From: Gordonia namibiensis NBRC 108229
Lineage (GTDB): Bacteria; Actinomycetota; Actinomycetes; Mycobacteriales; Mycobacteriaceae
DNA length: 64,000 nt
NCBI RefSeq assembly: GCF_000298235.1
Contig: NZ_BAHE01000006.1
Location: 62,001-126,000, forward strand
Reading direction: 5' to 3'
Under the pieces are notes generated by a model. The model saw nothing but the letters and a program-made list of their open reading frames with translations. It made no database searches and had not been told where the DNA came from. A program made the translations under genes and the position numbers. This document shows positions 29,696 to 47,989 of the stretch, piece after piece (the stretch's first letter is position 1; each line of letters starts with the position of its first letter).

Positions 29696-31462
29696 TCACT
29701 CCCGCGGCCCGCACGCGGGCACGTCGACCGTGACGGTGGGGTCGTCGACCAGCGGCTGCACCGGGACCTCGGCTTCGCCCGTCGCCGCGGTCGGCTCGTC
29801 GATCTTCAACGTGATCGTGGTGCTCTGTCCCGGGGCGATACCGACCCGGGTCGAGTAGTAGGGCCGCCCGTGCAGGGTCTGTTCGACGTAGAAGGCACCG
29901 GCGTCGCCGAGGGTCATCTCCTTGAGCACCGCACCCTTGGTGGCGAGGAACTCCACGTTGGCGAGGTTCGTGCCCTTGTCCACGGCCAGTTCGGTGCCGA
30001 GGCCACCGGCGACGTAGTCGGTGAGTCCGGCGGTCTCGTCGAGGGTGTTGGTCAGCGTGACCGTGATCGTGCTCTGCCGGGTGTCGCCGCTGCAATCGCC
30101 TGAGGTGTAGTCGATCTCGCGACGGAGGTAGTAGTCGAGCTTGCTGCCCGACGCATTGCCGATCGCCACCTGCAGATACGGCGAGTCGGTGTCGGAGATC
30201 TGATGCCCGAGCTTGGTGGTCTCGAGGATCTCCTGTTCGGCGGGCGTGGTGCTGTAGACCATGATCCGGCGCTCGTGGACGCCGCGTCCGAGCGCCTCGA
30301 GCAGGTCCCGGGTGCTCCCGCCCGAGCTGATCAATTTCTTCACCACAGCCTGGGAGATGGACTGCAGGTACGCCTTTCGGGCCTCGTTGTCGTCGGCGAA
30401 CCGCTGGTACGAGGTCGACAGCGTGATGGATACGACGTTGTCGGCGGTGATCTTCTCCCCGCCGGGCAACGTCACCGGTCCGACGACCTCGAGGATGTAC
30501 TTCAGCGCGATCGGGTCGAGGGCGATGGCACCGTCGAGCTTCTGGCCGGTCTGGGCCCGCCAGTTGGCCAGCCAGATCTTCGCCGCATCGGGGAAATGAG
30601 CGCTGAGGTTCCCGTTCCGGAAGTCGGTGTAGGGCTTGTAATACGAGTAGACCGCGTCGTACTCGGGGCCCAGGTTGATCTTCGGCGTCGCCGGGTCGCG
30701 GAACTCCGAGTTGGCACCCAGTTCGGGAACCGTCACCCGTCCGCCGGTCGCGTTGAGCAGCCCGAAACCGCCGACGAGCCCGCCGGTTCCGCGGGACTCC
30801 GACGGTGTCTGGAAGGCCATGAAGTAGTTGCGCGGCCCCGAGGAGCCCAGCATCGGCGGGATCAGCTGGGCGGCGATGTCGGTGGCGACCAGGGTGGACT
30901 CGGCCGCGTCCACCTGCTCGGCGAGTTGGGTTCTCGCATCGGCGACGACGCCGAGCCAGCTCGGGTTGATCGACGCGACCTCGTCGGCCACCTCGGTCGA
31001 GCGTTCGGCGACCTTGGCGAGGTCGGGCTGCGCCTCACGTAACAGCTTGAGATTCACCGTGTTCCCGGTCCGGAGCTGATCCGGGTTCAGTACGCCGGCG
31101 AGGTCCGCGGCCGGGAGGAGCACGTCGGCGGACAGCGCCTCGACGGCGTCGCTCATCTGCTGCACCGACTTCAACGGCGATCCGATCCCCGGGATCGCGG
31201 CCACCGCCGACCACACGATGCCGTGGGACCGGTCGGAGGCGGCCCGAGCGCTGTCGGCGGCCGCAGCGGCGGCCTGCGAGGCGCCGGCCTGATCGCCGTC
31301 GAGCATCAGGGTCCGGGCCTGCGAGGCGTCGGATCGGACCGACTCGAGGTCGCCCTTCACCTTCAGTGCCGAGTACGCGAGCCAGACGACGACCGCGGCG
31401 AGGAGCACCACGATCAGGGCGAGAACCTGGACCGCCCGGTTTCCGGCGATACGGCGGATCAC
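29696..31462 (-). CDS. DUF4012 membrane-anchored protein
   Basis: Protein of 588 residues with one N-terminal transmembrane segment (about 11-32, VLALIVVLLAAVVVWLAYSAL) and a long extracytoplasmic part. An Ala/Ser/Asp-rich helical stretch at 40-75 precedes the DUF4012 core with NYFMAFQTPSESRGTGGLVGGFGLL and DAVYSYYKPYTDFRNGNLSAHFPDAAKIW. The family occurs in actinobacterial surface-polysaccharide and envelope loci, but its activity is unknown. The GTG at 31462 overlaps the phosphatase stop as GTGA, indicating translational coupling to that gene and thus to the NRPS upstream. Confidence 0.85.
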   Translation of the reverse strand: MIRRIAGNRAVQVLALIVVLLAAVVVWLAYSALKVKGDLESVRSDASQARTLMLDGDQAGASQAAAAAADSARAASDRSHGIVWSAVAAIPGIGSPLKSVQQMSDAVEALSADVLLPAADLAGVLNPDQLRTGNTVNLKLLREAQPDLAKVAERSTEVADEVASINPSWLGVVADARTQLAEQVDAAESTLVATDIAAQLIPPMLGSSGPRNYFMAFQTPSESRGTGGLVGGFGLLNATGGRVTVPELGANSEFRDPATPKINLGPEYDAVYSYYKPYTDFRNGNLSAHFPDAAKIWLANWRAQTGQKLDGAIALDPIALKYILEVVGPVTLPGGEKITADNVVSITLSTSYQRFADDNEARKAYLQSISQAVVKKLISSGGSTRDLLEALGRGVHERRIMVYSTTPAEQEILETTKLGHQISDTDSPYLQVAIGNASGSKLDYYLRREIDYTSGDCSGDTRQSTITVTLTNTLDETAGLTDYVAGGLGTELAVDKGTNLANVEFLATKGAVLKEMTLGDAGAFYVEQTLHGRPYYSTRVGIAPGQSTTITLKIDEPTAATGEAEVPVQPLVDDPTVTVDVPACGPRE

Positions 31463-32070
31463 CGGGTCTCCCCTGTCGTCTCGGTGAGGTGTTGTGCCGC
31501 CAGCCACTTCGCCACGGTCTCGACCTTCGGCTCGATCTCGCCGAACACGCGGTCGAAGTCCTCACGCGGACGGCCCATCGGGTCGACGATGTCGAGGAGC
31601 GGCGAGTTGGGATCGATACGTCCCCGCCCGCCCATGATCGCGGCGAGGGTGCCGTTCTCCGCCGGGGTCCCGGTCTCCGCGAGGGAGGCGAACTCGGTGA
31701 GGGTGAACACGCGCTTCCAGCGGGCGGGCGCCATTTGCTGGGCGGCCGCACGGTGCTCGCGGCTCATGCACAGCACGAGGTCGGCCTGCGTCAGCATGGG
31801 CGGACGCAGGTATCGGGACTCGAAACCCGATGCGTCGTAGCCGTGTTCGGCGAGAACCGCGGCGGAGTGCGGGTGGATCGGCTGACCGTTGAGCGCGCCG
31901 GTGCCGGCACTGCTCGACGTGACGGCGAGATCCGCCCCGTCGGCCCGCATGCGGTCGGCCAGTCCGGTCAGCACGCGTTCGCCGATCGGCGAGCGGCAGA
32001 TGTTGCCGGTGCAGACGAACAGGATCGACAGTCCTGTCGATGCCTCGTCCCGCTCGGATCCGGTCACCAT
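31459..32070 (-). CDS. Low-molecular-weight protein tyrosine phosphatase
   Basis: Phosphatase of 203 residues. The P-loop is FVCTGNICRSP with nucleophile Cys20 and Arg26, and the general-acid Asp is in LDIVDPMGRP. It is longer than the usual 150-residue family because of an insert and extra N-terminal residues. Related enzymes dephosphorylate tyrosine kinases of exopolysaccharide export. The ATG at 32070 overlaps the NRPS stop (TGA at 32064-32066) by seven bases, and its own stop overlaps the DUF4012 start, so the three genes form one translationally coupled unit. No tyrosine kinase gene is seen in the window. Confidence 0.9.
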   Translation of the reverse strand: MVTGSERDEASTGLSILFVCTGNICRSPIGERVLTGLADRMRADGADLAVTSSSAGTGALNGQPIHPHSAAVLAEHGYDASGFESRYLRPPMLTQADLVLCMSREHRAAAQQMAPARWKRVFTLTEFASLAETGTPAENGTLAAIMGGRGRIDPNSPLLDIVDPMGRPREDFDRVFGEIEPKVETVAKWLAAQHLTETTGETR

Positions 32071-35000
32071 TCCTCCTCGATTCTCCTGGCCAGCCGACGC
32101 ATCACGTCGGGGTCGCCCAATTGCGCGTGTGCCACTCCGGCGGGGATCACTTCCACCGCCGGAGTCTGTGTTCCGGCATCGGGCCGGACGGCCCGTGCCC
32201 AGCTCTCGGTGTCCGGATTGTCCTCGGCGGCAACGTAGATGACCTTACCCACGGGCACCGGACGAAGTTCGTAGGACCGCACCGCGGCGGCGAGGGTCCG
32301 GGAGCGATCCTCGAACCGCCGTAGTGCCTGCGGGTCGTGGCGCTCGGCCGCGGCTCGGAGCGGATGATCCTCGCCGAGCAGCTCCTCGTCGGCCCCCTCG
32401 TGCAGGTCGCCGGGAGGTCGGGAGTCGAGCACCATCAGCACGTCGACCTGCTCGCCGGCCTCGATGAGTTGCCGGCTCATCTCGTGCGCGATGACACCAC
32501 CGAGCGACCAGCCGACGAGACGGTAGGGCCCGGACGGCTGGCGGCTGCGAACCGCCGCGACGTGCAGGGCCGCGATCTCGGGGAGGCTTGCGGGCAGGTC
32601 ACGGTCGGCGACGACGAGTTCGGGCAGCTGGAGACCATATGCGGCAGTCGAATCCAGTGACGCGCCGAAGGCCCGGAACGGTTCGACGATCCCGGTGGCG
32701 GTGTGCACGCACCAGATCGTCGGGGCCCCGGACTCCGGAACGCCCGATTCGGTGCCATCCGTGCGCGACAGCGGCACGACGCGGTGGTCGACGCCGGTAC
32801 CCTCCCCCGTGGACGCGGCGTCGACGACGCGGGCCACCTCGGCCGGCGTGCGGTGGGTGAAGAGGTCTGCGACGTCCACGGTGACGGAGGTGCGTCGGGA
32901 GAGTTCGTCGCGCAGCTGTACCAGGGCCAGGGAGTTGCCGCCCAGGGCGAAGAAGTCGTCGTCCATGCCGACGCCGTGTTCGCCGAGGACCGTCCGGAAG
33001 GCGTCGCGAACGGTTGTCTCCGTGCGGGTCTCGGGTTCGCGGGTCGATTCCGACCAGGTCGGCTCGGGGAGTCGTCGCTGGTCGATCTTGCCCGCGCCAC
33101 TCAGCGGCAGTTCGGCCAGTTCGACGATCCGGGCGGGCACCATGTGCCGCGGCAGCAGGGCGCGGCAGACGTCGGCGAGGCGGTCGACGGACACCGGCGA
33201 GACCACATAGGAGACGAGCGCCGGCCCGGCCGGCCCGGGCCGCAGCACGGTCACCGAGCGATCGGCTCCGGCGCGCAGGAGAACGGCGTCGATCTCGGCG
33301 GGTTCGACGCGTTGTCCGCGGATCTTCATCTGACGGTCCGCGCGGCCCACATAGATCAGCTCGCCGGTTTCGCGATCCCATCGCACGAGGTCGCCCGTCC
33401 GGTAGCGTCGACGCCCGTCACTCCCGGCCACGAAGGTCGCGGCGGTCAGTGGCCGGTCGCCGAGATATCCACGGGCGACGCCGGTTCCGCTGACGTAGAG
33501 TTCGCCCACCACGCCGGGCGGTACGTGCCGCAGTCGGGTGTCGAGGACCTCGGCCCCGATCCCGGGCCGCGGATGCCCCAGCCGCACGGGCTCGCCCGGA
33601 CGGTAGGCGCTGGTGGACACCGTCACCGTCGTCTCGGTGGGACCGTAGATGTTGCGGACCTGCGCCCACTCCGCCCACGCCGACGCGAGGTCGGCCGGCA
33701 GCGCCTCGCCGCCGATGTAGACCAGTCGCAACGAGGAGATCGATTCCGGCTGCATGGTCCGCATCACCGACGGGGTCGCGGTGAACACGCTGACCCGGGT
33801 GCGGTCGAGGAAGCCGGCGAGGTCCCGTCCCCCGACGATCTCCGGCGGGACGACGACGAGCGTCGCGCCCGTGGCCAGCGGCAGCAGCAGGTCGTGGAAC
33901 GTCGCGTCGAATCCGGGGCTGATCGCCATCCCCACCCGGTCGCCGGATTCCACGTCGCCGAGCCCGGCGACACGATGCACGCCGCGATGGGTGACGCCGA
34001 CGATGTTGGGGGTGCCCGTGGTGCCCGATGTCGTGATGACATACGCCAGGGAGTCCGGTGAGACACGTGCAACCGGCTCCGAGGCGACGGGTTCGACCGG
34101 TTGCGTGGGGATGTCCTCCGGACCGATCGCCGTCGCCCGTGCTCCGGCGACCACGTGCTCGATGCGCGCCGCCGGGTAGGTGACGTCGACGGGGACACAC
34201 ACCCCGCCGATGCGGCTCACCGCCCAGATGGCGACCACCGATTCGATGGAGCGCGGGACGACCACCGCAACCGCGTCGCCCGCGTCGAGGCCGCGCGCAC
34301 GAAGGGCGCGTGCCGTCTCCGACACCCAGGCGTCGAGTTCGCGGTAGGTGAGGGATCGCGTGCCGTCGGTGATCGCCGGCCGATCGCCGTGCGTGGCCAC
34401 CGTCCCGGTGAACAAGTCGGCGAGCAGTGGTTCGGTCCCGGTCGGCGCGGCGGCATGCGCACGGCCGCTGAGGAATTCGCGTTCGGCCGCGGTGAGGGGT
34501 TCGACGGCGGCGATCCGACGTGCGGGGTCGCCGGTCACCGCGGCCACGGCCGCCACCAGACGCTCACCCAGTCCGCGGATCACGCTCTCGTCGAACAGAT
34601 CCCGCGCGTGATGGAGCTGCAGCCGCCAGTTGCTCCCGGACCGGACCGCGACGATGTGCACGTCGAACTCGCTGTGCGAATCCATCGCGGTATGCGGTGC
34701 GTCCGCGGTGACGGGGCCTGGCGCGACGCCGGTGGAGTCGACCACCGAGAAGGCGACCTGGACGAGCGGGTGACGTCCGGGGATGCGCGGCGGATCGACG
34801 AGTGCGACGACGTCGTCGAAGGCGATGGCCGCGTGGTCGAGAGCGGCGAGGTCCGTGTCGCGGACGGTCTCGATGAGGCCGCCGACCGTCATCCCGGCGG
34901 TCAGTCGCGTACGAAGGACCACCGTCGAGATCAGCATGCCGACCGTGCCCGCACTGTCCGCGTCGCGGCGCATCGAGGCCGGGGTCGCCACGGCGATGTC

Positions 35001-38000
35001 GTCGACGCCGGCCTGCGCCGCGAGGGCTAGTGCGGTCGCGGCGTGCAGGAGATGGAAGTCGCTGGCCTGTGCGCGGCGGGCGGCCGTCGAGATGGACCGG
35101 GCGACGGCCTCGTCAATCGGGAACTCGATCACCGAGGTACGGAGATCGCGGTCGGGCGGACGGTGGTCGGCGAGGTCGAGTTCCCCGCGGTAACCATCGA
35201 GGGCCTGCCGCCAGTAGTCGTGCAATTCGGCGCGTGAGCTCTGCTCCTCGGCGACCATCCGCCGCGCGAGGACGTCGAAGCCGACCGGTTCCCGGTCCAG
35301 GGACTCGCCGGCCAGGAGCCCGGCGAGTTCCCGTTCGACGATGGCTGCGGATTCGCCGTCCATCGCGATGTGGTGGGCGACGAGGACCACCGCGACCGGG
35401 GCGGTGTCGACGCCGTTCTCCGTCAGCAGCCAGATCCGCACGGGCGGTTCCCCGGCGAGATCGAAGGGAGTCGAGAACTCATCGGCGATGGCCGTGCCGG
35501 TGAGCGCGGTCGAGTCGAGGTGCCGTACCGGCGGCCGCCATCCGTCGACGACCCGCTGCCGCGGACCGTCGGGCGTGGCCAGGTAGCGGGTGCGCAGCGC
35601 GGTGTGCCGGTCGACGAGGGCGTCCAGTGCGGCGGTCACCTCGGCCGTCGTGAGTCCGGGCGGCACACCGACGGCGACGGGAACCGAGTAGATCGGGACC
35701 TGGCCCAACATCTGCGCGCCCACCCACATGCGGCGCTGCGTCGGTGCGAGTGGGATCTCCGTGACCCGGTCGTCCGGATCGTCGACCGCACGAGAATCGG
35801 CAAGGTCTTGCACGGCGTCGACGGCCGGCGTGGGAACCGCGACGGCGAGGCCGGCGGGTGTCGGGTGCTCGAACAGCACCCGCGTCGGCACCCGGACACC
35901 GAGGTGGCGGCCCAGGGCCGAGGTCACCCTGGTGGCCGACAGCGAGGTGCCGCCGAGAGCGAAGAAGTCGGCGGATTCCGCAATCGCGTCCACCGAGACC
36001 TCGAGCACCTCGGCCATGATCGCGCGAACCTGCGCGACGAGCTCCGGATCGGCGAGTTCTCGCTCGTACCGGGCGGATTCGCCGGAATCGCGCGTGGGGA
36101 TCTCGGGGGCATCCACGGTCGAGGCCACGACCGGGAACGGCTGCCCGACGTCGCCCACACCGAGCAGCAGGGTGGTGTAGTCGTCGAGCAGCAGCCGGGC
36201 CACCTCGTCCGGGACCTGCGCGGAGTGCACCAGGGTGACATGCAGTTCGTCGTCGCTCTCGGCGAGGACCACCTCGATGTCGTACTTCGCGTCGACCGTC
36301 GATGTCGCCTCGGTGACCAGCGAGGCCATTGCGCCTGCCAGAGGGACCTCGCCGGAGGCCTGCGGGACGACCTCCTGGCTCACGAGCAGCACCGAGATCA
36401 GCGGATCGCCGCCGTGCCGGGCCGCGGGCCGGACCGCCTGTACGACGTCCTCGTAGGGGATGTCGCTGTGCGCCAGCGCTGCGAGTGCGACGTCGCGGAC
36501 CTGTTCCACCGCTTCGCGAACCGGGGTGTCCGGGCGGAGTCGGGTGCGCAGCGCGACGGTGTTGACGAACATGCCCACGACCGACTCCCATTCGGGGGCG
36601 GAGCGTCCGTGCACCGGCACGCCGACCAGGACATCCCACTGTCCGGTCAGCTGACCGAGGGTCGCCGAGAGAGCTGCGTGCGCGACCTGGAAGACCGTGG
36701 CCGACAACGCCTTCGCGGTCTGATGGATCGCGGGGGACGGCACGGAGGCACCGATACGACCGGTGACGCCCGCGGCGCCGGGGTCGCGATGACCGGGCAA
36801 CCGGAGCGGTTCCGGCGCATCGGCGAGAGTATCTGTCCAGTAACGGATCTGGTGCGCGAAGAGGCTGTCGTGATCGGCGGCGTCTCCGAGGCGTTCGATC
36901 TGCCACTGGGTGAAGTCGGCGTAGGTGAACGCCTCGTCGGCGGCCACCGCCAGTCGCTCGCCGTCGTAGGCGCGCATCAGGTCGGCGAGCAGCACACGGA
37001 TGGACCAACCGTCGATGGCGATGTGGTGGAGGACCGCCGCGAGGTAGAGGTCGGTGTCGTCGGTGGCGTCGTCAGACGTCTCCACCTCGAAGACGGCCGC
37101 GCGGAATCCGGGCTCGTTCTCGAGGTCGAACGGTGTGCGCAAGTACTCCGTCACCTGCCGTCGGACCACGGCCTCGACGTCCTCGTCGCCGACCTCCACG
37201 AGATGGTGTGCCAGCACAGGGCTTCGGTGTTCGATCCGTCGCTGGATCGGTCCGGCCGGCGAATCCGGGTACACCGTGCGGAGCACGGGGTGCGCACCCA
37301 CGACCTCGTCGACGGCCTTGCGCAGTCGGGCGAGGTCGACGCGACCGCGGATCCGCATCACCACGGGAACGTGGTATGCGGTCGATGTCGGGTCGACGTG
37401 ATGGTGAATCCACATGCGCCGCTGCGGATATGCCAGTGGTAACGGGTCGGGAACGGGAAGTCGCGCCGGCGCCGGCAGCGGGGCCGCGACGGGTCCGGAG
37501 GTCGGTGAGACCAGGTCGTCGACGCGGCGGGCGAGTTCGGCCATCGTCCGAGCCTCGAACAGCAGACGAGCCGCGACGTCGACACCGGTGGACGCGGAGA
37601 GCCTCGAGGTGACCTGTGTCGCCGACAGGGAGGTGCCGCCGTCGGCGAAGAAGTCCGAATCGGCGTCGAAGCTCTCGATCGGGCGGTCGAGGACCTCCGC
37701 CCACACCGACGCGATGAGTAGTTCCGTCTCCCCCGCCGGGGCGCGGCCGGCCGTCGCCGAACCACGGACACCGGTCGCGCCGAAGTCCGGTGCGGGCAGG
37801 GAGGTCACGTCGATCTTGCCGTTGCGTCCGATCGGCAGGTCGTCGACCTCGACGAATACTCCGGGGATCATGGTGCGCGGCAGCACATGTGCCAGTTGCG
37901 GTGCCAGGTTGTCGGTGCGGATCTCGACACCGGGCTCGCCGATCACCCAGGAGACCAGCACCTTCTCGCCTGCTGCGGTGGCACGCGCCGCGGTGACGGA

Positions 38001-41000
38001 GGCGGCGATGCCGGGCAGCCGGGACAGCGCCGCATCGATCTCGCCGGGTTCGAGGCGCACACCGCGGATCTTGACCTGGTCGTCGGTCCGGCCGTGGATC
38101 ACGAAGGTGCCGTCGCCGCGCCGGTGGACCAGATCCCCGGTGCGGTACATCCGCTCCCCGTGCGGACCGGCGACGAAGGCGGTCGCGGTCGTGCGTGGGT
38201 CGCCGAGATATCCACGCGCCAGACAGTTCCCGGAGAGATAGAGCTCCCCCACGGTGTGGTCCGGAACAGGACGCAGCCTCGCGTCGAGGACGTGCATGGT
38301 CACACCGTCGAGCGGGCGCCCGATGTGCACCGCGCCTCTCGTGGGACCGGTGTAGCGCGCACTGCTGACCGCGACGGTCGCCTCGGTCGGACCGTATTCG
38401 TTGCTGATCGTCGCGGTGCGGGTCCACTCGCGGACGAGACCCGCACCGAGCGGTTCGCCGCCCACGGCGACGTGCCGGACGTGCGGCAGGTCGTCGGGTC
38501 GCAGGGTGGCCAGCACCGAGGGGGTGGTGAGCAGAACGGTCACCCCGGCGTCTGCGACGAGGTCGGCGAGTTCGTCGGCCGCGATGACATCCGGCGGGCA
38601 CATGATCAGCGTCGCGCCGGCGATCCGCGGCGGCAGAACACCCATCAGGTGGGCGTCGAAACCGGTTGCGTACGTGTGCAGTACACGGTCGCCGGAGGTC
38701 AGGTCCAACCGTCGGGCGGTGTCGCGGGCCCACCCGGCGAGACCACAGTGAGTGACCGCGACGCCCTTCGGCACGCCGGTCGTCCCGGAGGTGAAGGTGA
38801 TGTAGGCGACGTCGTCCGGCGTCACCGCCCGTACTCGTTCCGCGTCGTCGAAGGGCGGCACCACCGCGGGCAGCTCGGCGAACACCTCGTCGAGAGCGAG
38901 CACCTCGACATCGATTCCCCCGGTGCCGATGCCCCCTGTGCCGATGCCAGCCGGGCCGGTGTCACCGAGAGAGAGCACCAGCGCCGGTCGGCATCGGTCG
39001 AGGACGAGGTTCCGTCGTTCGGCCGGGTCGGCGGGGTCGATGTTGACGAAAGCCGCACCCGCGCGGGCGATCGCGGCGGTCGCGATCACCCCGAACACCG
39101 ACCTCGGGAGCAGTTCGACGACGACGTCGCCCGCACCGACACCCCGTGCGATGAGTACGCGCGCCAGATGGGTCGACAGTCGGTCGACGTCGTGGCCGGA
39201 GATCTCGGTGCCGAACCCCGGTACGCGGTGGCAGGAATCGACGACCGCAACATCGGACGAGGTTGCGGCGACGTATGAGGTGAACAGCGCGTCGAAGGTC
39301 TCCGGTTCGAACTCCGGGCTGATCACCTCTTCGTCCGCCGGGCTCATCAGGGTGAGAACCGGCTCGTCGGGGGCCAGCACGCCGCGTCGCAGGGTGTCGA
39401 CGACGAGGTCGCACAGCGCATTCAGGCGGTCCGCGGTGGCGACCGCGTCGGTGCAGGACATCGTCACGTGGAGTGCACCGTCGTGCCGGTACATCGAGAC
39501 GTCGATGCCGAAGAGCGGTATACCCAGGACGCCCGACGCCGCGCCTCCGGGCGGGGACTCGGTTTCCGCCCATTCGACGATCGCATCCGGCACCGCGCCG
39601 AAGGACACCTCGAACAACGGGGTTCCGGCACCGGCACGACCGGGGTCGGCGATGTCGGCGATCTCGGTGAGGGGCAGGTCGGCGTGGGCGAAGGCGCCCA
39701 GGTCCACCGAGGTCACTCGAGCCAGCAGATCGGCGAAGGAGAGTTCCGGGTCGATGGGCGTGTGGAGCGGCACCGCACGCGCGAACAAACCGGGCACACC
39801 GACGAGGCCGGGGTCGAGACGGCCGGACAGCGCGGTGCCGACGGTGACCACCCCGACACCCGACTGTGTCGACAGGACCGCGGCCAGCGCGGTGTGGGTG
39901 GCGATGAACGGTGTCGTCGACCGTGCCACGGTCAGCGCGTCGAGCGATGCGGTGACGGCCGAATCGAGGCGGCCCTGCACACGGTGCACGATCGTCTCCC
40001 CCGCGGGGGCAACGGATTCCGCCTGCAGGTTCATCTCGGGTAGGCGCAGCTGTTCGAGCGGTTGGTTGAACGCGTCCCGCCAGAACGCGGTGAGTTCCGC
40101 GCGCCTCGCGTCGAGCGTCTCGGCGCGCCACATGGAGTACCGCCGATAGTCGGTTCCGCTCGTGGGCAGCGTCGCACCGGCGAGGGCCGTGTCGAGTTCA
40201 CCGGCCAGGATCGCGAAGGATTCTCCGTCGGCGGCGATGTGGTGGATCACCCCGAGAAGCCAGGTGGTGCCGTCGATCTCGACGATCCGTACGCGCCACG
40301 GAAGCGAGGTGGCGAGGTCGATCGGCGTGGCCATCGAGGCGAGAACGGAAGTCACGTCCGGCCTCGGGCGGGCGTCGGGTCCGAGTTCCCGTTCCAGATG
40401 GTCGAGCACCCTGGCGTCGTCCCATCGATGTTGCACCGGGACCCCTTCTCGCAAAGGGAATACGGTGCACAGGGCGTCGTGTCGCGCCACAATCGCGGCA
40501 ACCGCGCGTCGCACGTCGACGGGGCTCGCGTCGATCGGCCAGGCCACCGGCAGGAGGTAGCCGGTGAACTCGGGCTCGGTCCGCCACCGCAACCACACGT
40601 CCATCTGTTCCGGTGTGAGCGGCAGATCCGCAGGGATGTCGACATCATCGGCAAGGAGGGACGCACGCGACGGAACGGGCGAGGTTCCCGGAGCGGCGAT
40701 CCGCGCCGCCAGTTCGGCGACGGTCGGATTCTCGAAGACGTCGGCCACCTCCACCCGGTAGCCCATCCCGGCGAGGGTGGCGGCCAGGCGTGCCGCCGAG
40801 AGCGAGGTGCCTCCGGCAGCGAAGAAGTTCGTGCCAGCGCCGAGAGGACCGGCGTCCTCACCGACGACCGCACGGATCGCCGACGCCACGGTCTCCTCGA
40901 CCGGGCCGAGGACCCGCCCGACCGGCGGGGCGGTGTCGGTGATGGTCGCGAAGAGTTTGTCGCGGTCGATCTTTCCGGTCCGGGTCATCGGCCAGCCGTC

Positions 41001-44000
41001 GACGATCGCGACGCGGGCCGGCACGGCGTGCCCCGGCAGACGTGCAGCGCAGGCTGCCAGGATCGCCGCCTCGTCGAGGTCATCGAGGACGTCGAAGTCG
41101 GCGAGGCCGTCCTCGGTCACGAAAGCCAGCAGTTGTTCATCGCCCGCCCGGCGACCCGGTCGTACCAGGACGCGTGCGTCGCCCACACCGGGAACGGCAC
41201 GCAGGGTCGAGACGACCTCGCCGAGTTCGACCCGGTGACCGCGGATCTGGACCTGGTCGTCGTTGCGACCGAGGTAGGCGAGGCGGCCGGGTGCGACCTC
41301 GCGGACGCGGTCGCCGGTGCGGTACATCCGCCGGCCGCTCCCCGACGGGTCGGCGACGAACCTTGTCGCGGTGAGGCCGGGAGCGTTGAGGTAGCCGAGT
41401 GCTACCTGTTCTCCGACGAGGTACAGCTCGCCGGCCGCACCGGTCGGCACCGGTCGCAGGCGCCGGTCCAGGACCATCCACCCGACGCCGTCGAACGGAG
41501 CACCGATGATGCTGCGTTCGTCGTCGGTGTCGACGTCGGCCGCGGTCAGCACCACGGTCGTCTCGGTGATGCCGTACATGTTGAGCAGCCGGGTGTTCGG
41601 GTGGTCGGCAGCCCATGCGCGCACAGTGTTCGGTGCGAGGGTCTCACCGCCGAAGACGACGGCCCGCAGGGACGGGAGCGCCGGTGGCACGGGAGTGGTT
41701 GCGAGGTCGACGATCCCGCTGAACGCGGTCGGGGTCTGCGAGAGGATCGTGATCCCGTGCCGCTCGATCGTCTCGGCGAGTGCCCGCGGGTCCCGGACCG
41801 TCGTCCGGTCGACCACGACGACGCTGCCGCCGGAGGCCAACGCACCGAGGATCTCCCACACCGAGAAGTCGAAGGCGTACGAGTGCACCCAGGCCCAGAC
41901 GTCTCGCGGGGAGGCGTCGATGAGGTCGAGTCCCGCCGCCATCAGCGCGGCCACGTTCTGTCGGGTCACCACCACGGCCTTCGGCAACCCGGTGGAGCCG
42001 GAGGTGTGGATGATGTAGGCGGCACCCGGGATCGGCTGCGCGCGTTGATGACCGGGCCCCTCCGACACCTCGAGCCGGCTGTCGACGATCGCGGCCGGGG
42101 CGGTCCCGGCCAGGATCAGGTCGACACGCGCCTGCGGGAGGTCCGGGTCGATCGGGACGTAGACCGCATCGGCCAGGAGGGTCGCGACGATCGCGACCAC
42201 GGTGTCGGCGCGACGGTCCATGAGCAGGGCCACGCGGTCGCCGGGGCGCAGACCGGAGGCCTGAAGACGCGTGGCGAGTGTGCGTGCCCGGTCGATGAGG
42301 GTTCGGTAGTCGAGGGTGACGTCGCCGTCGATGACCGCACGCGCCTCGGGATGCGCGTCGGCGTGGTGCAGGAGCGCCGGTATGGGATCGACGCAGGCGG
42401 TCCGGCGAGTACCCGGGTCGGTGGCAGTTCCCGGCGACAAGCAGTCGGCGACGGTCTGGTCGGGGGCCGCGGCCGCCAAGGCTGCGACGGCCTCGACGAA
42501 CCTGTCGAGGATTCGACGAGCCGCTGCCACGTCCACACGCCGCTCGGCAACCGTCAGAGAGACCGACAACCCGTTCCCGTCGTCGATCACGGTGAACTCC
42601 AGCGGGGTTCGGGCCTCGGGGGTCCGCAGGGTCTCGCCGCCGGCGAAGACCGTCCACGCGATGAGATCGGGTGAGGATGCGTGGAAGGCGAAGATGACGT
42701 CGGACAACCCGGTCGGCCCGGAATCCGCCAGCGAGACAGCGGTAGCGAGGTCGCGCCCGGTGACCGTGAGCGCGTGGGCGACAGCCGCCTCGCGGACACC
42801 GGTCACGCGCACCGGTACCGTCTCGACGAACATTCCGACCGGGCGGAGTTCCTCGCTGGTGAAGCGACCCGACACCGGCATCGACATCACGACGTCGTCG
42901 GAGTCGGTGAACTCGGCCAGGACCGCCGAGAGTGCCACGCACAGAATCGTATTGACGGTGGTGCTGTTCTCGCGAGCCTGCGCGGACGCGGCTTCGGTGA
43001 TCGCCCGGTCGACCCGTCGACTCTCGTGGACCGCCGGCCCGGCCGTGAGCCCAGGGCCCGCCGTATCGCTCACCGCGGGTTCGGGCAGGGCGAGACGTTC
43101 GGGCGCGTCCCTCAAGTACCGGGCCCAGAAGACCTCCGCCGCAGCAGTTGTCGCCGACGATCCGGCGGTTCGTGCGTCCAGGACCGCACTGAAGGCGACC
43201 GCCTCGGTCTCCCAGACGGGATCCGCGCCGGCTGCACGTGCGCGCACCGCATGCGCGAAATCCTCCAGCACGATGTGCAACGACCACTCGTCGACGGCGA
43301 TGTGGTGGGCGACGAGGACCAGCTCGACGGCCTCTCGCGTCTCGTCGAGCACCGCCCGCCACGGGACCTCGGTGCGCAGGTCGAACGGAGCGGACACCGC
43401 GAGATCGACACCCGCGGTGTCCAGGGTGGCACTGGTGATTGGCGCGGCAGCAGCTGATTCGACCGTACCGCGTACCTGCGCGACGGGTCCCCCGTCGACC
43501 TCTGGGTAGACGGTCCGCAAGGCCTCGTGCCGGATGGCCACGTCGATCAGCGCCGCCCGCGCCGCGTCGGCGGTGATCTCCTCGGCGAGTGTGAGCCGCA
43601 CCGGCAGGTGATAGACGGTCGCGCGTGGGGCAGCCCGGTTCAGGAGCCAGATCTCCTGCTGGGCTCGGGTCGGGCGATAGGAGATGGCACCGTCGGTGGA
43701 CGTCATCCGTCTCGGGGAGGCGGCCTCGATGACCGACGCGAGTTCGGCGAGCGTCGTCACCGTCGCCAGCTCGCGCATGTCGACGACCACGCGCAGAGTG
43801 CTCCCGAGGTGGGTCGCGAGTTGCATGAATCCCAGGGAGGTGGCGCCCAATCGGACGAGCTCGTCGTCCATCGACGGATTCCCGACCCCGAGTATCTCGG
43901 TCACCGCTTCGGCAACCGCCACCTCGGTGGGGGTGGCCGCCGCCCGGTGGCGGGTCTCCGCCTCGGGTGTCGCGGCGATCAGCCGCGCCGCCGCCCGCCG

Positions 44001-46832
44001 GTCGAGGTTTCCGGTCGGGTCCGTGGGCAGCTCGGCGAGGATCACGACGCGGCGGGGCCGGGTCGAGGCCGGCACCTCCTCGTCGACGCGCCGGCGGACC
44101 GCGGCCCGAACCCGTGAGCGGTCCGGATCGGCGGCGTCGCACACGATGCCGATGTCGAGGGCGTTCTCGGCCACCACCGACACCGCGTACCCAACCCCGG
44201 GAACCTGCCCTGCCGCCCGGTCGAGCGCCGCGAGATCGATGCGGACACCGTCGAGAGTGACGACATCCTCGGCGTGGTGGTCGACGACCAACATGCCCGT
44301 GCCCGGGTCGAAATGGCCGCGATCCCCGGTGTGGAGCATGGTGACGCCCGGCTCCCAGGGACACGCCACGAAGGCCGATGCGGTACGGACCGCGTCGCCG
44401 GCGATGGACGTCGCCACCTGCGGGCCGCTGACGTAGACGTCACCCGTGACCCCCACCGGGACCGGCCGTAGCAGCCGGTCGAGGATCGCGATCCCGGTGG
44501 CCGGACGCGGAGCGCCACTGGGCAGTCGGTGATCGACGGCTGCGTCGCGGCCGATCCGGCGGCTCGACGTCACCGGGCCGAACGCACCGCGCGGACAGTA
44601 CGGCGCGGACACCTCGCGACCGAAGGCGAGACGGACCAGCGCCGCCGGTGCGATGTCCCCGCCGACGACCAGCAGCGAGGTCATCGGCCCCTGCGCTCCG
44701 AGTCCGGGTACATCTCCCGGTGTGGCGATCACATGCGTGACGGCTGCGGTGTCGGGGCCGGGCACCACGAGTCGGAGGCCGTGCGCGGCCGCGGCGATGA
44801 TCTCCAGATGGGCCGCCGAGGATGCCGCGGGCGCACCGAAGAACAACCGGCCGTACTCGAGACCGGTTGCCGCGGAGTCGAACACGCCGTTCGTGAGCAG
44901 AGCGGCGAACGCACGCTGGGGCACCGCGAGTGTGCCCGGGCCGGAGCCGTTGTCGGTGATCGCGAGATGGCAGGCGATGTCACCCGGTGCGGGACGGGGC
45001 ACCGGCACCGCGGACGCCTCCAGGTGGTCCAGTTCGGCGAGGGTCAGAACACGCGGACCGGGAATCGACGCGACCGCTCCCTCGGACCCGGTGATGACGA
45101 GGACGGGACGCGTGGTCTGCATCAGTTCCGAGAAGCCGTCTCTCGGAGCGTGCGGGTCGAGCAGCAGGATGGCCGCCCCGCTCACCGCGACCGTCCACCA
45201 CGCGGTGAGCAGGTCTGCGCCCGGTGGGAGCGAAACGGCCACCGTCGTGCCGGGAACCGCACCGGCGGTACGGAGTCGCGCGGCGAGGTCGAGGGCGCGC
45301 CGGTGCAATTGCCCGAACGAGAGTTCAGGGACACGCGGCCCGTCGATGACCGGCGAATGTGCATGGCGCGCAACCGCGGACGCGAGCGCCTCGGGGACCG
45401 TCTGCGGACGGGACGTCACGGCCGGGCCGTTGACCACGGCAACCGGATTCGCCAATGGGAGATCGTCGATGCGGGTGTCCGGAGCGTGTAGCAGCGCGTC
45501 GGCGAACGTTCGCAGCATCGCGAGGAACTGTCGATGATGCTCGGCGACCTCGGCGTCGTCGTATCGTTTCGGGTTGGCCTCGACCCCGACCATGAGCACC
45601 GAGTCCCGCTCCTCGCCGGCGACCGGGAAGATGTTGACCGACAGGTCCTCGGCGGGACCGACCGTCACGACGTGGAAGGTGCCGCGCGCCTCGCCGCAGG
45701 GGAATTCCCGTTGGAAGAGCATCAGATTGAGCATCGGACCCGAACGTTCCTGTGCCGCCGTCCGACGCACTCGCCCGCTGGTCTCGTCGGCGGCGACGTC
45801 GGCCCAGATGTCCTCGCCGCGGTAGCGCTGGTGTCGCAGCGCGCCGAGAAGCGCCGCCTGCGTGGTGGCCAGCGCCTCGGTGACCGACGCCCCTCCCGCC
45901 ACGCCGGTGCGCAGGGGAACGACATTCGCGACCGGCATGGGGGTCGAGCGAAGCGCTGCGGTGGTCCGGGCGGCGACCGGGAACTGGAAGATCACCTCGT
46001 CACCGTCTGCGGCGGCCCGGGCCAGGTAGGCCGAGAACGCGGCGACGATGACGTTCGGCAGGATCGTCGAACGCTGCTCGGCCGCGCGCCGCAGAAGGTC
46101 CATCGTCCCGGTGTCGACCGGTGCGACGACCCGCCGCGAGACGGCTTCCGGTTCGCCGCGCCGGTGTGCGAGGGACGCGGGAATCCCCACCCCGGCCATG
46201 GCCTGTCGCCAGTGAGCCCGATCTGTCTCGAATCGTCGCGATGCGCGGTATTCGTCGTCGGCGCGTGCGGGCAGATCCAGGTCCACCGGTTTGGCGGGCG
46301 GGAGCTCGCCGCCGGTGACCGCCGCGTGGTACGCGGCGAGGGCCTCGACCATGCGGTCCTTGCCGCCGACACCGTCGGAGAGCATGTGATGTCCGCGGTT
46401 GTAGACGTAGAACTTCTCGTCACCGAGACGGAAGAGGCAGCCGCGCGCGGTGCGGTCGACGCGCGGATCCAGTGGGCGGGCGCAGTCCTCGCGCATGATC
46501 GCCTCGGCGGCCGCGTGGGGGTCAGGGCGATCCCGGAGATCGATTACGTCGGCCCAGTAATGCAGCGAGGGATCGTAGACGCCGACCAGTCCGTCGTCGG
46601 TGTCCTCGAAACGGATCTGCGTGAACTGGGCCCGACGCACCACCTCGCTCGTCACCCGGAGGAAGAGTTCGACGTCGATCGGCCCGTCGATCTCGACGTA
46701 TTGCGCGATGTTGATCGGCACCTCGGGCGCTGCCTGCTGGGTGAACCACAGGGCGCGCTGCGCGGCGTTGAGCCGGAATCGTCGAGCGATTCCGGCAGCG
46801 GGAGTCCCGGGGGGCGGGGTCGGGTGACTCAT
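32064..46832 (-). CDS. Five-module nonribosomal peptide synthetase with terminal thioesterase
   Basis: Multidomain synthetase of 4922 residues. Domains in order (approximate residues): C1 17-455 (HHMLSDG at 148), A1 470-945 (degenerate), T1 (Ser999), C2 1050-1480 (HHIAVDE at 1176, last Gly changed to Glu), A2 1490-1955 (TSGSTGLPKA, MYGITE, TGKIDR), T2 (Ser about 2008), C3 2075-2500 (HHIAADG), A3 2510-3010 (TSGTTGVPKG, EYGPTE, NGKID), T3 (about 3066), C4 3130-3560 (HHIAIDG), T4 (about 3628) with no A domain between, C5 3690-4110 (HHIAMDG), A5 4130-4590 (TSGTTGTPN, IYGPTE, AGKID), T5 (about 4630) and a TE 4695-4922 (GWSLGG, AHAQL). There is no epimerase, and no MbtH-like gene in the window. The leading C domain suggests lipo-initiation or an upstream partner. 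My manual reading of the A2 pocket is D-F-W-S-V-G-M-V-V, near threonine codes. The product is unknown. Confidence 0.95.
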   Translation of the reverse strand: MSHPTPPPGTPAAGIARRFRLNAAQRALWFTQQAAPEVPINIAQYVEIDGPIDVELFLRVTSEVVRRAQFTQIRFEDTDDGLVGVYDPSLHYWADVIDLRDRPDPHAAAEAIMREDCARPLDPRVDRTARGCLFRLGDEKFYVYNRGHHMLSDGVGGKDRMVEALAAYHAAVTGGELPPAKPVDLDLPARADDEYRASRRFETDRAHWRQAMAGVGIPASLAHRRGEPEAVSRRVVAPVDTGTMDLLRRAAEQRSTILPNVIVAAFSAYLARAAADGDEVIFQFPVAARTTAALRSTPMPVANVVPLRTGVAGGASVTEALATTQAALLGALRHQRYRGEDIWADVAADETSGRVRRTAAQERSGPMLNLMLFQREFPCGEARGTFHVVTVGPAEDLSVNIFPVAGEERDSVLMVGVEANPKRYDDAEVAEHHRQFLAMLRTFADALLHAPDTRIDDLPLANPVAVVNGPAVTSRPQTVPEALASAVARHAHSPVIDGPRVPELSFGQLHRRALDLAARLRTAGAVPGTTVAVSLPPGADLLTAWWTVAVSGAAILLLDPHAPRDGFSELMQTTRPVLVITGSEGAVASIPGPRVLTLAELDHLEASAVPVPRPAPGDIACHLAITDNGSGPGTLAVPQRAFAALLTNGVFDSAATGLEYGRLFFGAPAASSAAHLEIIAAAAHGLRLVVPGPDTAAVTHVIATPGDVPGLGAQGPMTSLLVVGGDIAPAALVRLAFGREVSAPYCPRGAFGPVTSSRRIGRDAAVDHRLPSGAPRPATGIAILDRLLRPVPVGVTGDVYVSGPQVATSIAGDAVRTASAFVACPWEPGVTMLHTGDRGHFDPGTGMLVVDHHAEDVVTLDGVRIDLAALDRAAGQVPGVGYAVSVVAENALDIGIVCDAADPDRSRVRAAVRRRVDEEVPASTRPRRVVILAELPTDPTGNLDRRAAARLIAATPEAETRHRAAATPTEVAVAEAVTEILGVGNPSMDDELVRLGATSLGFMQLATHLGSTLRVVVDMRELATVTTLAELASVIEAASPRRMTSTDGAISYRPTRAQQEIWLLNRAAPRATVYHLPVRLTLAEEITADAARAALIDVAIRHEALRTVYPEVDGGPVAQVRGTVESAAAAPITSATLDTAGVDLAVSAPFDLRTEVPWRAVLDETREAVELVLVAHHIAVDEWSLHIVLEDFAHAVRARAAGADPVWETEAVAFSAVLDARTAGSSATTAAAEVFWARYLRDAPERLALPEPAVSDTAGPGLTAGPAVHESRRVDRAITEAASAQARENSTTVNTILCVALSAVLAEFTDSDDVVMSMPVSGRFTSEELRPVGMFVETVPVRVTGVREAAVAHALTVTGRDLATAVSLADSGPTGLSDVIFAFHASSPDLIAWTVFAGGETLRTPEARTPLEFTVIDDGNGLSVSLTVAERRVDVAAARRILDRFVEAVAALAAAAPDQTVADCLSPGTATDPGTRRTACVDPIPALLHHADAHPEARAVIDGDVTLDYRTLIDRARTLATRLQASGLRPGDRVALLMDRRADTVVAIVATLLADAVYVPIDPDLPQARVDLILAGTAPAAIVDSRLEVSEGPGHQRAQPIPGAAYIIHTSGSTGLPKAVVVTRQNVAALMAAGLDLIDASPRDVWAWVHSYAFDFSVWEILGALASGGSVVVVDRTTVRDPRALAETIERHGITILSQTPTAFSGIVDLATTPVPPALPSLRAVVFGGETLAPNTVRAWAADHPNTRLLNMYGITETTVVLTAADVDTDDERSIIGAPFDGVGWMVLDRRLRPVPTGAAGELYLVGEQVALGYLNAPGLTATRFVADPSGSGRRMYRTGDRVREVAPGRLAYLGRNDDQVQIRGHRVELGEVVSTLRAVPGVGDARVLVRPGRRAGDEQLLAFVTEDGLADFDVLDDLDEAAILAACAARLPGHAVPARVAIVDGWPMTRTGKIDRDKLFATITDTAPPVGRVLGPVEETVASAIRAVVGEDAGPLGAGTNFFAAGGTSLSAARLAATLAGMGYRVEVADVFENPTVAELAARIAAPGTSPVPSRASLLADDVDIPADLPLTPEQMDVWLRWRTEPEFTGYLLPVAWPIDASPVDVRRAVAAIVARHDALCTVFPLREGVPVQHRWDDARVLDHLERELGPDARPRPDVTSVLASMATPIDLATSLPWRVRIVEIDGTTWLLGVIHHIAADGESFAILAGELDTALAGATLPTSGTDYRRYSMWRAETLDARRAELTAFWRDAFNQPLEQLRLPEMNLQAESVAPAGETIVHRVQGRLDSAVTASLDALTVARSTTPFIATHTALAAVLSTQSGVGVVTVGTALSGRLDPGLVGVPGLFARAVPLHTPIDPELSFADLLARVTSVDLGAFAHADLPLTEIADIADPGRAGAGTPLFEVSFGAVPDAIVEWAETESPPGGAASGVLGIPLFGIDVSMYRHDGALHVTMSCTDAVATADRLNALCDLVVDTLRRGVLAPDEPVLTLMSPADEEVISPEFEPETFDALFTSYVAATSSDVAVVDSCHRVPGFGTEISGHDVDRLSTHLARVLIARGVGAGDVVVELLPRSVFGVIATAAIARAGAAFVNIDPADPAERRNLVLDRCRPALVLSLGDTGPAGIGTGGIGTGGIDVEVLALDEVFAELPAVVPPFDDAERVRAVTPDDVAYITFTSGTTGVPKGVAVTHCGLAGWARDTARRLDLTSGDRVLHTYATGFDAHLMGVLPPRIAGATLIMCPPDVIAADELADLVADAGVTVLLTTPSVLATLRPDDLPHVRHVAVGGEPLGAGLVREWTRTATISNEYGPTEATVAVSSARYTGPTRGAVHIGRPLDGVTMHVLDARLRPVPDHTVGELYLSGNCLARGYLGDPRTTATAFVAGPHGERMYRTGDLVHRRGDGTFVIHGRTDDQVKIRGVRLEPGEIDAALSRLPGIAASVTAARATAAGEKVLVSWVIGEPGVEIRTDNLAPQLAHVLPRTMIPGVFVEVDDLPIGRNGKIDVTSLPAPDFGATGVRGSATAGRAPAGETELLIASVWAEVLDRPIESFDADSDFFADGGTSLSATQVTSRLSASTGVDVAARLLFEARTMAELARRVDDLVSPTSGPVAAPLPAPARLPVPDPLPLAYPQRRMWIHHHVDPTSTAYHVPVVMRIRGRVDLARLRKAVDEVVGAHPVLRTVYPDSPAGPIQRRIEHRSPVLAHHLVEVGDEDVEAVVRRQVTEYLRTPFDLENEPGFRAAVFEVETSDDATDDTDLYLAAVLHHIAIDGWSIRVLLADLMRAYDGERLAVAADEAFTYADFTQWQIERLGDAADHDSLFAHQIRYWTDTLADAPEPLRLPGHRDPGAAGVTGRIGASVPSPAIHQTAKALSATVFQVAHAALSATLGQLTGQWDVLVGVPVHGRSAPEWESVVGMFVNTVALRTRLRPDTPVREAVEQVRDVALAALAHSDIPYEDVVQAVRPAARHGGDPLISVLLVSQEVVPQASGEVPLAGAMASLVTEATSTVDAKYDIEVVLAESDDELHVTLVHSAQVPDEVARLLLDDYTTLLLGVGDVGQPFPVVASTVDAPEIPTRDSGESARYERELADPELVAQVRAIMAEVLEVSVDAIAESADFFALGGTSLSATRVTSALGRHLGVRVPTRVLFEHPTPAGLAVAVPTPAVDAVQDLADSRAVDDPDDRVTEIPLAPTQRRMWVGAQMLGQVPIYSVPVAVGVPPGLTTAEVTAALDALVDRHTALRTRYLATPDGPRQRVVDGWRPPVRHLDSTALTGTAIADEFSTPFDLAGEPPVRIWLLTENGVDTAPVAVVLVAHHIAMDGESAAIVERELAGLLAGESLDREPVGFDVLARRMVAEEQSSRAELHDYWRQALDGYRGELDLADHRPPDRDLRTSVIEFPIDEAVARSISTAARRAQASDFHLLHAATALALAAQAGVDDIAVATPASMRRDADSAGTVGMLISTVVLRTRLTAGMTVGGLIETVRDTDLAALDHAAIAFDDVVALVDPPRIPGRHPLVQVAFSVVDSTGVAPGPVTADAPHTAMDSHSEFDVHIVAVRSGSNWRLQLHHARDLFDESVIRGLGERLVAAVAAVTGDPARRIAAVEPLTAAEREFLSGRAHAAAPTGTEPLLADLFTGTVATHGDRPAITDGTRSLTYRELDAWVSETARALRARGLDAGDAVAVVVPRSIESVVAIWAVSRIGGVCVPVDVTYPAARIEHVVAGARATAIGPEDIPTQPVEPVASEPVARVSPDSLAYVITTSGTTGTPNIVGVTHRGVHRVAGLGDVESGDRVGMAISPGFDATFHDLLLPLATGATLVVVPPEIVGGRDLAGFLDRTRVSVFTATPSVMRTMQPESISSLRLVYIGGEALPADLASAWAEWAQVRNIYGPTETTVTVSTSAYRPGEPVRLGHPRPGIGAEVLDTRLRHVPPGVVGELYVSGTGVARGYLGDRPLTAATFVAGSDGRRRYRTGDLVRWDRETGELIYVGRADRQMKIRGQRVEPAEIDAVLLRAGADRSVTVLRPGPAGPALVSYVVSPVSVDRLADVCRALLPRHMVPARIVELAELPLSGAGKIDQRRLPEPTWSESTREPETRTETTVRDAFRTVLGEHGVGMDDDFFALGGNSLALVQLRDELSRRTSVTVDVADLFTHRTPAEVARVVDAASTGEGTGVDHRVVPLSRTDGTESGVPESGAPTIWCVHTATGIVEPFRAFGASLDSTAAYGLQLPELVVADRDLPASLPEIAALHVAAVRSRQPSGPYRLVGWSLGGVIAHEMSRQLIEAGEQVDVLMVLDSRPPGDLHEGADEELLGEDHPLRAAAERHDPQALRRFEDRSRTLAAAVRSYELRPVPVGKVIYVAAEDNPDTESWARAVRPDAGTQTPAVEVIPAGVAHAQLGDPDVMRRLARRIEEEW

Positions 46833-47989
46833 GGTCGACCCGCCAGGCGCTCACCCGGTCCGTGGGACCACGAGCTCATGGGGCACGCCGACCGTCTGAT
46901 CCCCCCGACCGTCGGTGCGCCTCCGCCACCGAATCTCCACACCCACGAATCCGCGACAACGAATCAGCGGATCCCAAATTCCCGGAACGGGATACGTGTC
47001 GCGAGAAAGGTGCGACATGAACGGATTCTCCGGGATGAAATCCTGCCCGCACCGAATTCTGCGCCGGCGGATCAGACGTGCCGGAATTCAACACGGTGGA
47101 ATTCAACGCCCTGCCTCACCACTCACCATGCGCCGTCCTCGTCACGTCCGACTGCTGTCACCTGTACGCCAGAACCCGCCGCATCCACGCGGCACATCGG
47201 ATTCCGTCGGCACCGTTTTCTCCAGCAGCCGCTGACCCCGGGACATCGTTGCCGATCACTGCCACCGGTGGAATCGTCCGAGCGTACGACCGCCCCTATG
47301 ACGGCGGTCACACCGACGTGTGCTGCGCGAATACCGTTCAGCGCCGCGCGGATACCAAGAGACTATGGGACGGGTCGGAGCCCCACAACTCGGGGGCACC
47401 GGTATCGAATGGGCGCCCCGTGAATGCCCGCGAATCCTCCGGTCGGCAATCAGGTGAGCAACGGGAAGGGAATTCACCGCTCCCCCGAATTCACTTTCTC
47501 GGATTCGTCGCGAACTGATTCGAAATTCGGGCAAAAATCTGTCATCCACTCGGAGGACACCGACCTACTCGACGTCTCAATGGTCGACCGGAACGGGTAC
47601 CGGACTCGAGAGCGATTCCACCACGCGGTGCGGAATGCGCCGCCCCCGGCGATTCGCATTCGCCTCGAGAATAGGGGCACCCTCTTTTCGCACCAGGTTG
47701 GCGTCGAGCAGAAAAAGCTCGCTCGTTCGACTGATTCACCATCTGCGGATGCACCCGATCGCGATATGCGACGCCAACCGCGCTCACACGCAAGGTTTGT
47801 GACGACCGCGCCTACGATGTGGACGTATCAGCCCGGCGCGCAACAGAATTGGAGACACCCACAGGAGACTCTGCGGATACCCGCACACCCGTCACCCCTG
47901 TCGCCGGGGTGCGGTCTACCCATACCGGAACGGCGGCCTCGGAAAGGCCGCCGTACCGGGTTGACTGAGATCCCTCGCGGGAGAGGCGA
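46833..47989. other. Gene-free 1.16-kb interval upstream of the NRPS
   Basis: No open frame here looks protein-coding: the candidates lack conserved motifs, membrane segments or sensible start sites. From about 46935 to 47800 the DNA is visibly richer in A+T than its neighbours and holds five GAATTC sites (47054, 47084, 47099, 47470, 47487). GGAATTCAAC is repeated 15 bases apart at 47083 and 47098. It must contain the NRPS promoter, and its end nearest the LLM gene holds a terminator-like hairpin. Confidence 0.6.
47930..47954 (-). terminator. Hairpin terminator downstream of LLM oxidoreductase gene
   Basis: A 10-bp perfect stem (47930-47939 with 47945-47954) with loop CGGAA, 36 bases past the stop of the minus-strand oxidoreductase gene. 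No T-run. Confidence 0.6.

Follow-up and report, generated by a model that had tools for sequence, protein, structure and literature searches.

A Gordonia nonribosomal peptide synthetase with an odd, conserved module pattern is probably the peptide arm of an exopolysaccharide system

A 64,000-nucleotide stretch of the Gordonia namibiensis NBRC 108229 genome (contig NZ_BAHE01000006.1, positions 62,001 to 126,000; the whole stretch is called the window below) encodes a single-chain nonribosomal peptide synthetase (NRPS) of 4922 residues. We propose that this NRPS is probably the peptide arm of an exopolysaccharide (EPS)/envelope system, producing a short and probably N-acylated peptide, and not a free-standing secondary-metabolite gene. 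A functional link between the NRPS and EPS genes appears well supported by gene order and content: by overlaps with a phosphatase gene and a DUF4012 gene, by co-occurrence of these genes within Gordonia, by EPS operons around NRPS orthologues, by joint remnants in one genome, by adjacent tyrosine kinase genes in other genera, by the single clade formed by the first condensation domains, and by the DUF4012 protein itself, with its modelled core resembling LytR-CpsA-Psr (LCP) proteins and its presence in a Bifidobacterium longum EPS locus. Judged by its domains, the enzyme is a synthetase of the starter-C lipopeptide type with an odd, conserved module pattern. The novelty seems to lie in the setting, where the enzyme is joined in a conserved genetic union to EPS phosphoregulation and an LCP-like protein. 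The position of this trio among EPS genes suggests a small, probably fat-capped peptide within the bacterial surface coat.

The NRPS gene opens an overlapping trio

The original prediction described the NRPS as an orphan, which did not hold: two overlapping downstream genes had been overlooked (Table 1), and they change the meaning of the NRPS. There is a 7-nt overlap between the end of the NRPS gene and the start (ATG) of a gene for a 203-residue low-molecular-weight (LMW), Wzb-like protein-tyrosine phosphatase (PTP), in which both the CX5R P-loop and the DP loop are present. The PTP stop codon in turn overlaps by 4 nt the likely GTG start of a DUF4012 gene, whose open reading frame (ORF) extends to 31507. 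The three genes thus have the layout of a translationally coupled operon, with the NRPS as apparent gene 1.

Pfam returned PF13196 as the only match of the DUF4012 protein, and no LCP sequence family. Its structure was modelled from 59 sequences, replacing a poor first model (8 sequences, pLDDT 66.6). The modelled core resembles LCP polymer ligases: LCP-like chains dominate the structure rows that match it, with weak E-values, and 7 of the first 30 rows of one match list fall off the LCP-like part. Among named records, the DUF4012 proteins at 82-95% identity all belong to Gordonia, including G. alkanivorans and G. amicalis. In two genomes, G031 (L077:7568-10000) and G011, PTP and DUF4012 are fused into a single protein of 810-881 residues.

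The trio and a tyrosine kinase co-occur in Gordonia

We surveyed 59 Gordonia genomes, the window's included. NRPS orthologues, defined by a relative of the first condensation domain (C1) of at least 44% identity linked to DUF4012, occur in 22; among the matches listed, the next C1 relatives, at most 40% identical and in genomes without the trio, were treated as paralogues. DUF4012 is present in 26 genomes (all 22 with the NRPS, G020, G027 and G053, and as broken pieces G028) and a close PTP of at least 45% identity in 25 (the same 22, G020, G053 and a broken copy in G028). A bacterial tyrosine kinase (BY-kinase) was detected at E <1e-70 in 22 genomes, namely 21 NRPS-positive ones (all except G045) and G020; this cut was chosen afterwards and sits in a wide gap, the next best genome scoring 4e-39. 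Fisher's test gives p ~1e-13 for the co-occurrence, a value uncorrected for phylogeny among related species. In G028, the NRPS C-terminus, PTP and DUF4012 survive as adjacent broken remnants by menB at ~82% identity (L089/L111), and a close BY-kinase is missing, so the set seems to have been lost as one.

NRPS orthologues lie within exopolysaccharide loci

The surroundings of the NRPS were read from stretches of 24 other Gordonia genomes. A Wzx/Wzy EPS locus with BY-kinase and PTP around the NRPS orthologue was found in G018 and, in part, in others. In G018, one strand carries a priming sugar transferase (PF02397), UDP-glucose dehydrogenase, nucleotide-sugar epimerase/dehydratase genes and glycosyltransferases, followed by hexapeptide acyltransferases, a Wzx-like flippase (scoring just under the Pfam cut-off), a GDSL protein and a Wzz/BY-kinase, and then by the NRPS, PTP, DUF4012 and an esterase; a Wzy-like gene lies nearby on the opposite strand. 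G040 shows the same gene families as far as the end of its contig. Two NRPS relatives, each with its own DUF4012, stand close together in one EPS locus in G031 and G030; in G031 both have six modules, with EPS genes between them. DUF4012 and PTP also sit within a polysaccharide gene cluster in G053 and G020, where the NRPS is absent.

The window belongs to a lineage of 11 genomes with the trio by menB and one DUF4012 per genome. Upstream of the NRPS, three of them (G005, G056, G015) carry glycosyltransferase and GDP-mannose-dehydratase genes and a partial priming transferase. A close BY-kinase lies 143-164 kb from the NRPS in the six genomes with both on one contig; in the window genome, the priming transferase and the BY-kinase are on contigs other than that of the NRPS. 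Neither a second DUF4012 nor a second close PTP was found at the distant BY-kinase in the G034 and G055 regions or on these two contigs of the window genome, so the phosphatase of this kinase appears to travel with the NRPS. All seven BY-kinases read, that of the window genome included, have a P-loop and a Tyr-rich tail, and the P-loop is intact in the PTPs read; kinase and NRPS-linked phosphatase may act on each other.

The association extends to other genera

At the family level, DUF4012 occurs in 129 of 301 genomes and 15 of 31 genera. Among 20 DUF4012 loci from 14 non-Gordonia genera, hand-picked for spread, 13 loci in eight genera carry an NRPS next to DUF4012 or overlapping it, and the other seven show none in the stretch; with Gordonia, the adjacency is thus seen in nine genera. 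Seven of the 13 loci, from six genera, were enlarged. Measured between stop-to-stop ORFs, a BY-kinase lies no more than 2 kb from the NRPS in all seven; each also shows a PTP at 36-51% identity in the enlarged stretch, and six have a priming transferase of at least 50% identity. A genetic tie of the NRPS to EPS genes is seen in Gordonia, Williamsia and Rhodococcus. Williamsia muralis has the NRPS-DUF4012 pair; Williamsia excepted, the NRPSs of these genera differ in module number and order.

A quick tree of 110 C domains, built without rows of known subtype, placed 28 first-position C domains in one group (SH-aLRT 100). Within it, 20 rows make up a single clade (SH-aLRT 95) of C1 domains from DUF4012-linked NRPSs, of Gordonia as well as other genera, separate from eight other first C domains, all from Gordonia (five first by coordinates, three by assumption). 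Internal C domains of Williamsia at positions C3 to C5 each fall with the Gordonia domains of the matching position, so the C-T-C-A-T-TE ending seems older than the split of the two genera.

Domain order and active-site motifs of the NRPS

The NRPS gene starts with ATG and has no internal stops. Pfam recognised five condensation (C), five AMP-binding and five PP-binding stretches and one thioesterase (TE). A profile search built from the chain's own domains found four adenylation (A) domains, the fifth AMP-binding stretch presumably being one A domain cut in two by Pfam. Together the two methods give the order C-A*-T/C-A-T/C-A-T/C-T/C-A-T-TE, where T is the carrier domain and A* a dead A domain. 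With motif reading added, the original prediction proved right on the anatomy (five C, four A, five T and a type I TE in one chain), on the degenerate first A domain and on the lack of an epimerase, since neither Pfam nor the profile search for extra C-like domains found a sixth, E-type domain. HHxxxD is present in each of the five C domains, and the Ser in each of the five T domains. The chain thus has the C/A/T modules, active-site motifs and release domain of a type I modular NRPS, with A1 dead and module 4 lacking an A domain. Solved-structure matches of the TE include the EntF TE.

The same order recurs in 17 Gordonia chains, the window's counted (15 in a single ORF, 2 split into two), and with one extra module in four more, and is therefore far beyond chance. 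The split orthologues, in G034 and G015, reflect an assembly error or a real break. Between G003 and G056, dS rises from 0.03-0.12 for C1 to A2 to 0.32-0.50 for T2 to TE, which suggests interspecies recombination inside the gene.

The A3 and A8 motifs, Asp235 and the A10 Lys are all retained in the A domains of modules 2, 3 and 5. A single residue separates the A2 code from DFWSVGMVHK, which is listed under Thr; Thr is a tentative substrate, because the source, as far as consulted, links the same group of codes to other moieties as well. For the codes of A3 and A5, no paper was found in the literature searched, which left out most subscription journals.

Table 1 Features of the NRPS and its overlapping partner genes (positions in the window)
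Feature	Position	Strand	Basis or remark
NRPS coding sequence, C-A*-T-C-A-T-C-A-T-C-T-C-A-T-TE	32064..46832	-	4922-residue ORF, Pfam, profile search
C1, apparently starter-type condensation domain	45510..46781	-	HHMLSDG intact
A1*, full-length, catalytically dead adenylation domain	43983..45383	-	A3, Asp235, A8 and A10 Lys gone
T1	43719..43931	-	Carrier Ser present despite dead own A domain
C2	42444..43682	-	HHIAVDEWS, Glu in place of HHxxxDG Gly
A2, intact	40953..42374	-	Code DFWSVGMVVK
T2	40689..40901	-	Profile search and motif reading
C3	39366..40628	-	Profile search and motif reading
A3 domain, intact	37794..39284	-	Code DAMLAGEVAK
T3	37518..37730	-	Profile search and motif reading
C4 of A-less module, elongation-type	36153..37442	-	Profile search, motifs, solved-structure matches
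T4 of A-less module	35826..36038	-	Ser present
C5	34506..35756	-	Profile search and motif reading
A5, intact	33066..34412	-	Code DAHTYGIVTK
T5	32814..33026	-	Profile search and motif reading
TE, type I thioesterase	32067..32747	-	GWSLGG nucleophile motif; Asp and His motifs present
LMW PTP (Wzb-like)	31459..32070	-	PF01451; P-loop VCTGNICRS, DPMGRP
DUF4012 protein	29696..31462	-	PF13196; apparent N-terminal membrane helix, LCP-like core

The first condensation domain looks starter-type

A starter-type C1, suggested by the original prediction, gained support. Among solved structures, C1 comes closest to ObiF1, to 7c1h and related entries titled 'NRPS modules', to CDA synthetase I and to EntF; we take these to be acyl- or aryl-accepting first C domains, 7c1h presumably being the starter C of the rhizomide synthetase RzmA. 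The control domain C4 instead matches first 5u89, Txo2, tyrocidine synthetase 3 and others, with ObiF1, 7c1h and CDA far lower. In the tree, C1 groups with the first-position C domains. C1 thus looks starter-type, and the product is likely an acyl-peptide or lipopeptide. Among the scanned neighbours of the NRPS, no acyl ligase other than menE was recognised.

Module 1 combines a dead adenylation domain with a live carrier

The loss of the four motifs from A1 was followed across 22 chains from 21 of the 22 NRPS genomes (G031 gives two; G030 is not included). A dead A1 is found in 17 of them, while G033, G045, G037 and both chains from G031 have an intact one; all 22 retain the T1 Ser and the C1 HHxxxDG. 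C2 reads HHxxxDE in every dead-A1 chain and in none of the other five; since the dead-A1 chains form one lineage, this pairing possibly reflects a single event. In G033, the last A domain, not A1, looks lost. The penultimate module lacks an A domain in each of the 21 chains in which it is covered.

Ratios of nonsynonymous to synonymous substitution (dN/dS), taken over seven species pairs that are not mutually independent, were 0.25-0.37 for A1*, 0.09-0.18 for C1 and 0.07-0.33 for T1. A1* exceeded C1 in all seven pairs and T1 in five, and had the lowest identity of all domains, alone or tied, in six; C1 had the lowest ratio among C and A domains in five. Well below 1 yet above C1, the ratios of A1* show it to be constrained, though more weakly than C1, as expected of a structural remnant in a module still used. 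The simple view of module 1 as vestigial was rejected on the low C1 ratios, the T1 Ser kept by every chain, and the A1* ratios. Another A domain, acting in cis or in trans, would load T1 and T4, much as fungal siderophore synthetases load their A-less modules. The Gordonia NRPSs form a natural series, with A1 intact, decayed or truncated and T1 retained, that is useful for studying the loading of A-less carriers.

Proposed pathway and alternatives

In the pathway we propose, C1 would cap the T1-bound residue with an acyl (or aryl) group. T1 and T4, having no functional A domains of their own, would be charged from elsewhere. Four further residues, the second perhaps Thr, would be added, and the TE would release a short N-capped peptide without D-residues from an in-cis epimerase domain. 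The PTP would act to reset the BY-kinase, the pacemaker of EPS polymerisation and export; the role of DUF4012 would be to retain or attach the polymer at the envelope. The peptide would be made together with the EPS and act in the same surface layer, either as an EPS-associated lipopeptide or bound to the EPS.

The chief alternative, which we rate as possible and clearly less probable, is an ordinary acyl-pentapeptide secreted as a free surfactant or antibiotic and tied to EPS only by shared regulation for surface growth. The starter-type C1 and type I TE would suit such a product, as would the window genome, in which no gene next to the trio was recognised as an EPS gene. It leaves unexplained, however, the overlap with a Wzb-like PTP and DUF4012, the recurrence in EPS operons and the adjacent BY-kinase in other genera. 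The scan of neighbours also turned up no recognisable gene for dedicated export or for resistance, pitA (2.4 kb upstream) being part of the conserved block.

A bolder idea, which we regard as speculative and rather unlikely, is a hybrid pathway, not described before, that would be common to Gordonia, Williamsia and Rhodococcus: the NRPS would make an N-acylated peptide that becomes attached to a Wzx/Wzy-type EPS or serves to anchor it, with the last ligation step carried out by the LCP-like DUF4012 enzyme under BY-kinase/phosphatase control. If so, a nonribosomal peptide would be a building part of a surface polymer. It is likewise doubtful, and a shade more so, that the product sits covalently in or on the polysaccharide, the TE, or an enzyme acting on the peptide once released, transferring the acyl-peptide to a repeat-unit sugar, or the peptide serving as lipid anchor, and DUF4012 ligating the conjugate to the envelope. 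Tight gene linkage and the modelled LCP-like fold of DUF4012 would fit such a conjugate, and fatty acids ester-bonded to Rhodococcus EPS are described in the parts consulted of a 2026 review (PMC12786566). This purely inferential proposal is weakened by the lack of an identified dedicated transferase and by the silence on peptides in the portions of the EPS literature consulted.

Passive clustering of surface and secondary-metabolism genes in the menB-pitA hot spot, with no functional link, is improbable. The original prediction placed the NRPS in a conserved men/respiratory block, and the men/pitA setting proved right: menB and pitA are 19.6 kb apart here (window 29674-49240) and <6 kb apart in 26 of the 35 Gordonia that lack the NRPS and have the two genes on a single contig. 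These counts omit 7 of the 59 genomes, in which the genes are on different contigs or pitA was not found. The interval is a hot spot, spanning 6-45 kb in eight of the 35 and 203 kb in one, which favours mere gathering. Yet it measures <6 kb in 3 of 17 NRPS-positive genomes, so the NRPS lies outside it there; the trio accompanies the BY-kinase in other genera, and in six genomes even with the EPS operon 143-164 kb off; and NRPS, PTP and DUF4012 were broken jointly in G028. A plain 'inserted island' was also weakened as a description, several Gordonia carrying EPS genes near menE and pitA; the trio may be the remainder that stayed there.

A siderophore synthetase is very improbable: C1 also resembles EntF and ObiF1 (aryl acceptance being presumed) and the TE resembles that of EntF, but the partner genes are EPS-type, and no iron-uptake, dihydroxybenzoate or hydroxamate genes were recognised among the scanned neighbours, dihydroxybenzoate genes elsewhere in the genome not having been searched.

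Surroundings of the trio

No MbtH gene was found in the window, in line with the original prediction, and the genome's three all lie on another contig. Two near-adjacent MbtH genes with equal scores (G000:C49:180942-181501) are on the contig of another NRPS cluster. Upstream of the NRPS, about 1.15 kb (46833-47989) holds no convincing gene, falls within a region of lower G+C and is possibly a long regulatory region; an Rfam scan returned three tRNAs only, with no match there. Further off, an ORF with a ThiF match and a weak nitroreductase match (25489-27588) adjoins a GGDEF protein gene (23044-24609).

Significance and comparison with known systems

The NRPS, cryptic and at first sight an orphan, can thus be studied as one component of a testable surface system; in the six non-Gordonia genera with enlarged loci, the NRPS has a BY-kinase next to it. 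DUF4012, mentioned by only three papers in the literature searched, gains a lead. In that literature we recognised no description of an NRPS-EPS link, and no paper combining LCP, nonribosomal peptide and exopolysaccharide. A 2022 survey of Gordonia metabolism counts NRPS clusters, and 'exopolysaccharide' is absent from its main text (PMC9680422). The consulted parts of a 2025 Rhodococcus EPS study report no EPS-specific clusters and no association of polysaccharide genes with biosynthetic clusters, a statement on which the proposed link bears; Table 3 of that study does include NRPS clusters of weak saccharide similarity (PMC12298843).

Starter-C lipopeptide NRPSs such as CDA synthetase I and RzmA (which we take to be 7c1h) share with the window NRPS an N-terminal starter-type C domain, C-A-T modules and a C-terminal type I TE. 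The window NRPS differs from them in its dead A1 with a live T1 and its A-less penultimate module, and in overlapping a Wzb-like PTP and DUF4012 in place of acyl ligase, transporter or tailoring genes. Mycobacterial glycopeptidolipids offer another likeness, an NRPS-made acyl-peptide on the cell surface with glycosyltransferases, but they are small glycolipids and not Wzy polymers. From the LCP phosphotransferases (Cps2A, TagT/U/V, LcpA), DUF4012 is set apart by the lack of a Pfam LCP match and by long extra helical and beta regions. The B. longum 105-A EPS locus shares DUF4012 with the window trio, the gene lying between the priming transferase and wzz, and the NRPS is absent from the consulted part of the table (PMC5412050). 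The Wzx/Wzy-dependent EPS and capsule loci have in common with the regions around NRPS orthologues a priming transferase, UDP-glucose dehydrogenase, glycosyltransferases, Wzx-like and Wzy-like proteins, a Wzz/BY-kinase with a Tyr-rich tail and an LMW-PTP. In contrast to these, the Gordonia loci hold a large NRPS, and in the window's lineage the phosphatase goes with the NRPS while the kinase lies elsewhere.
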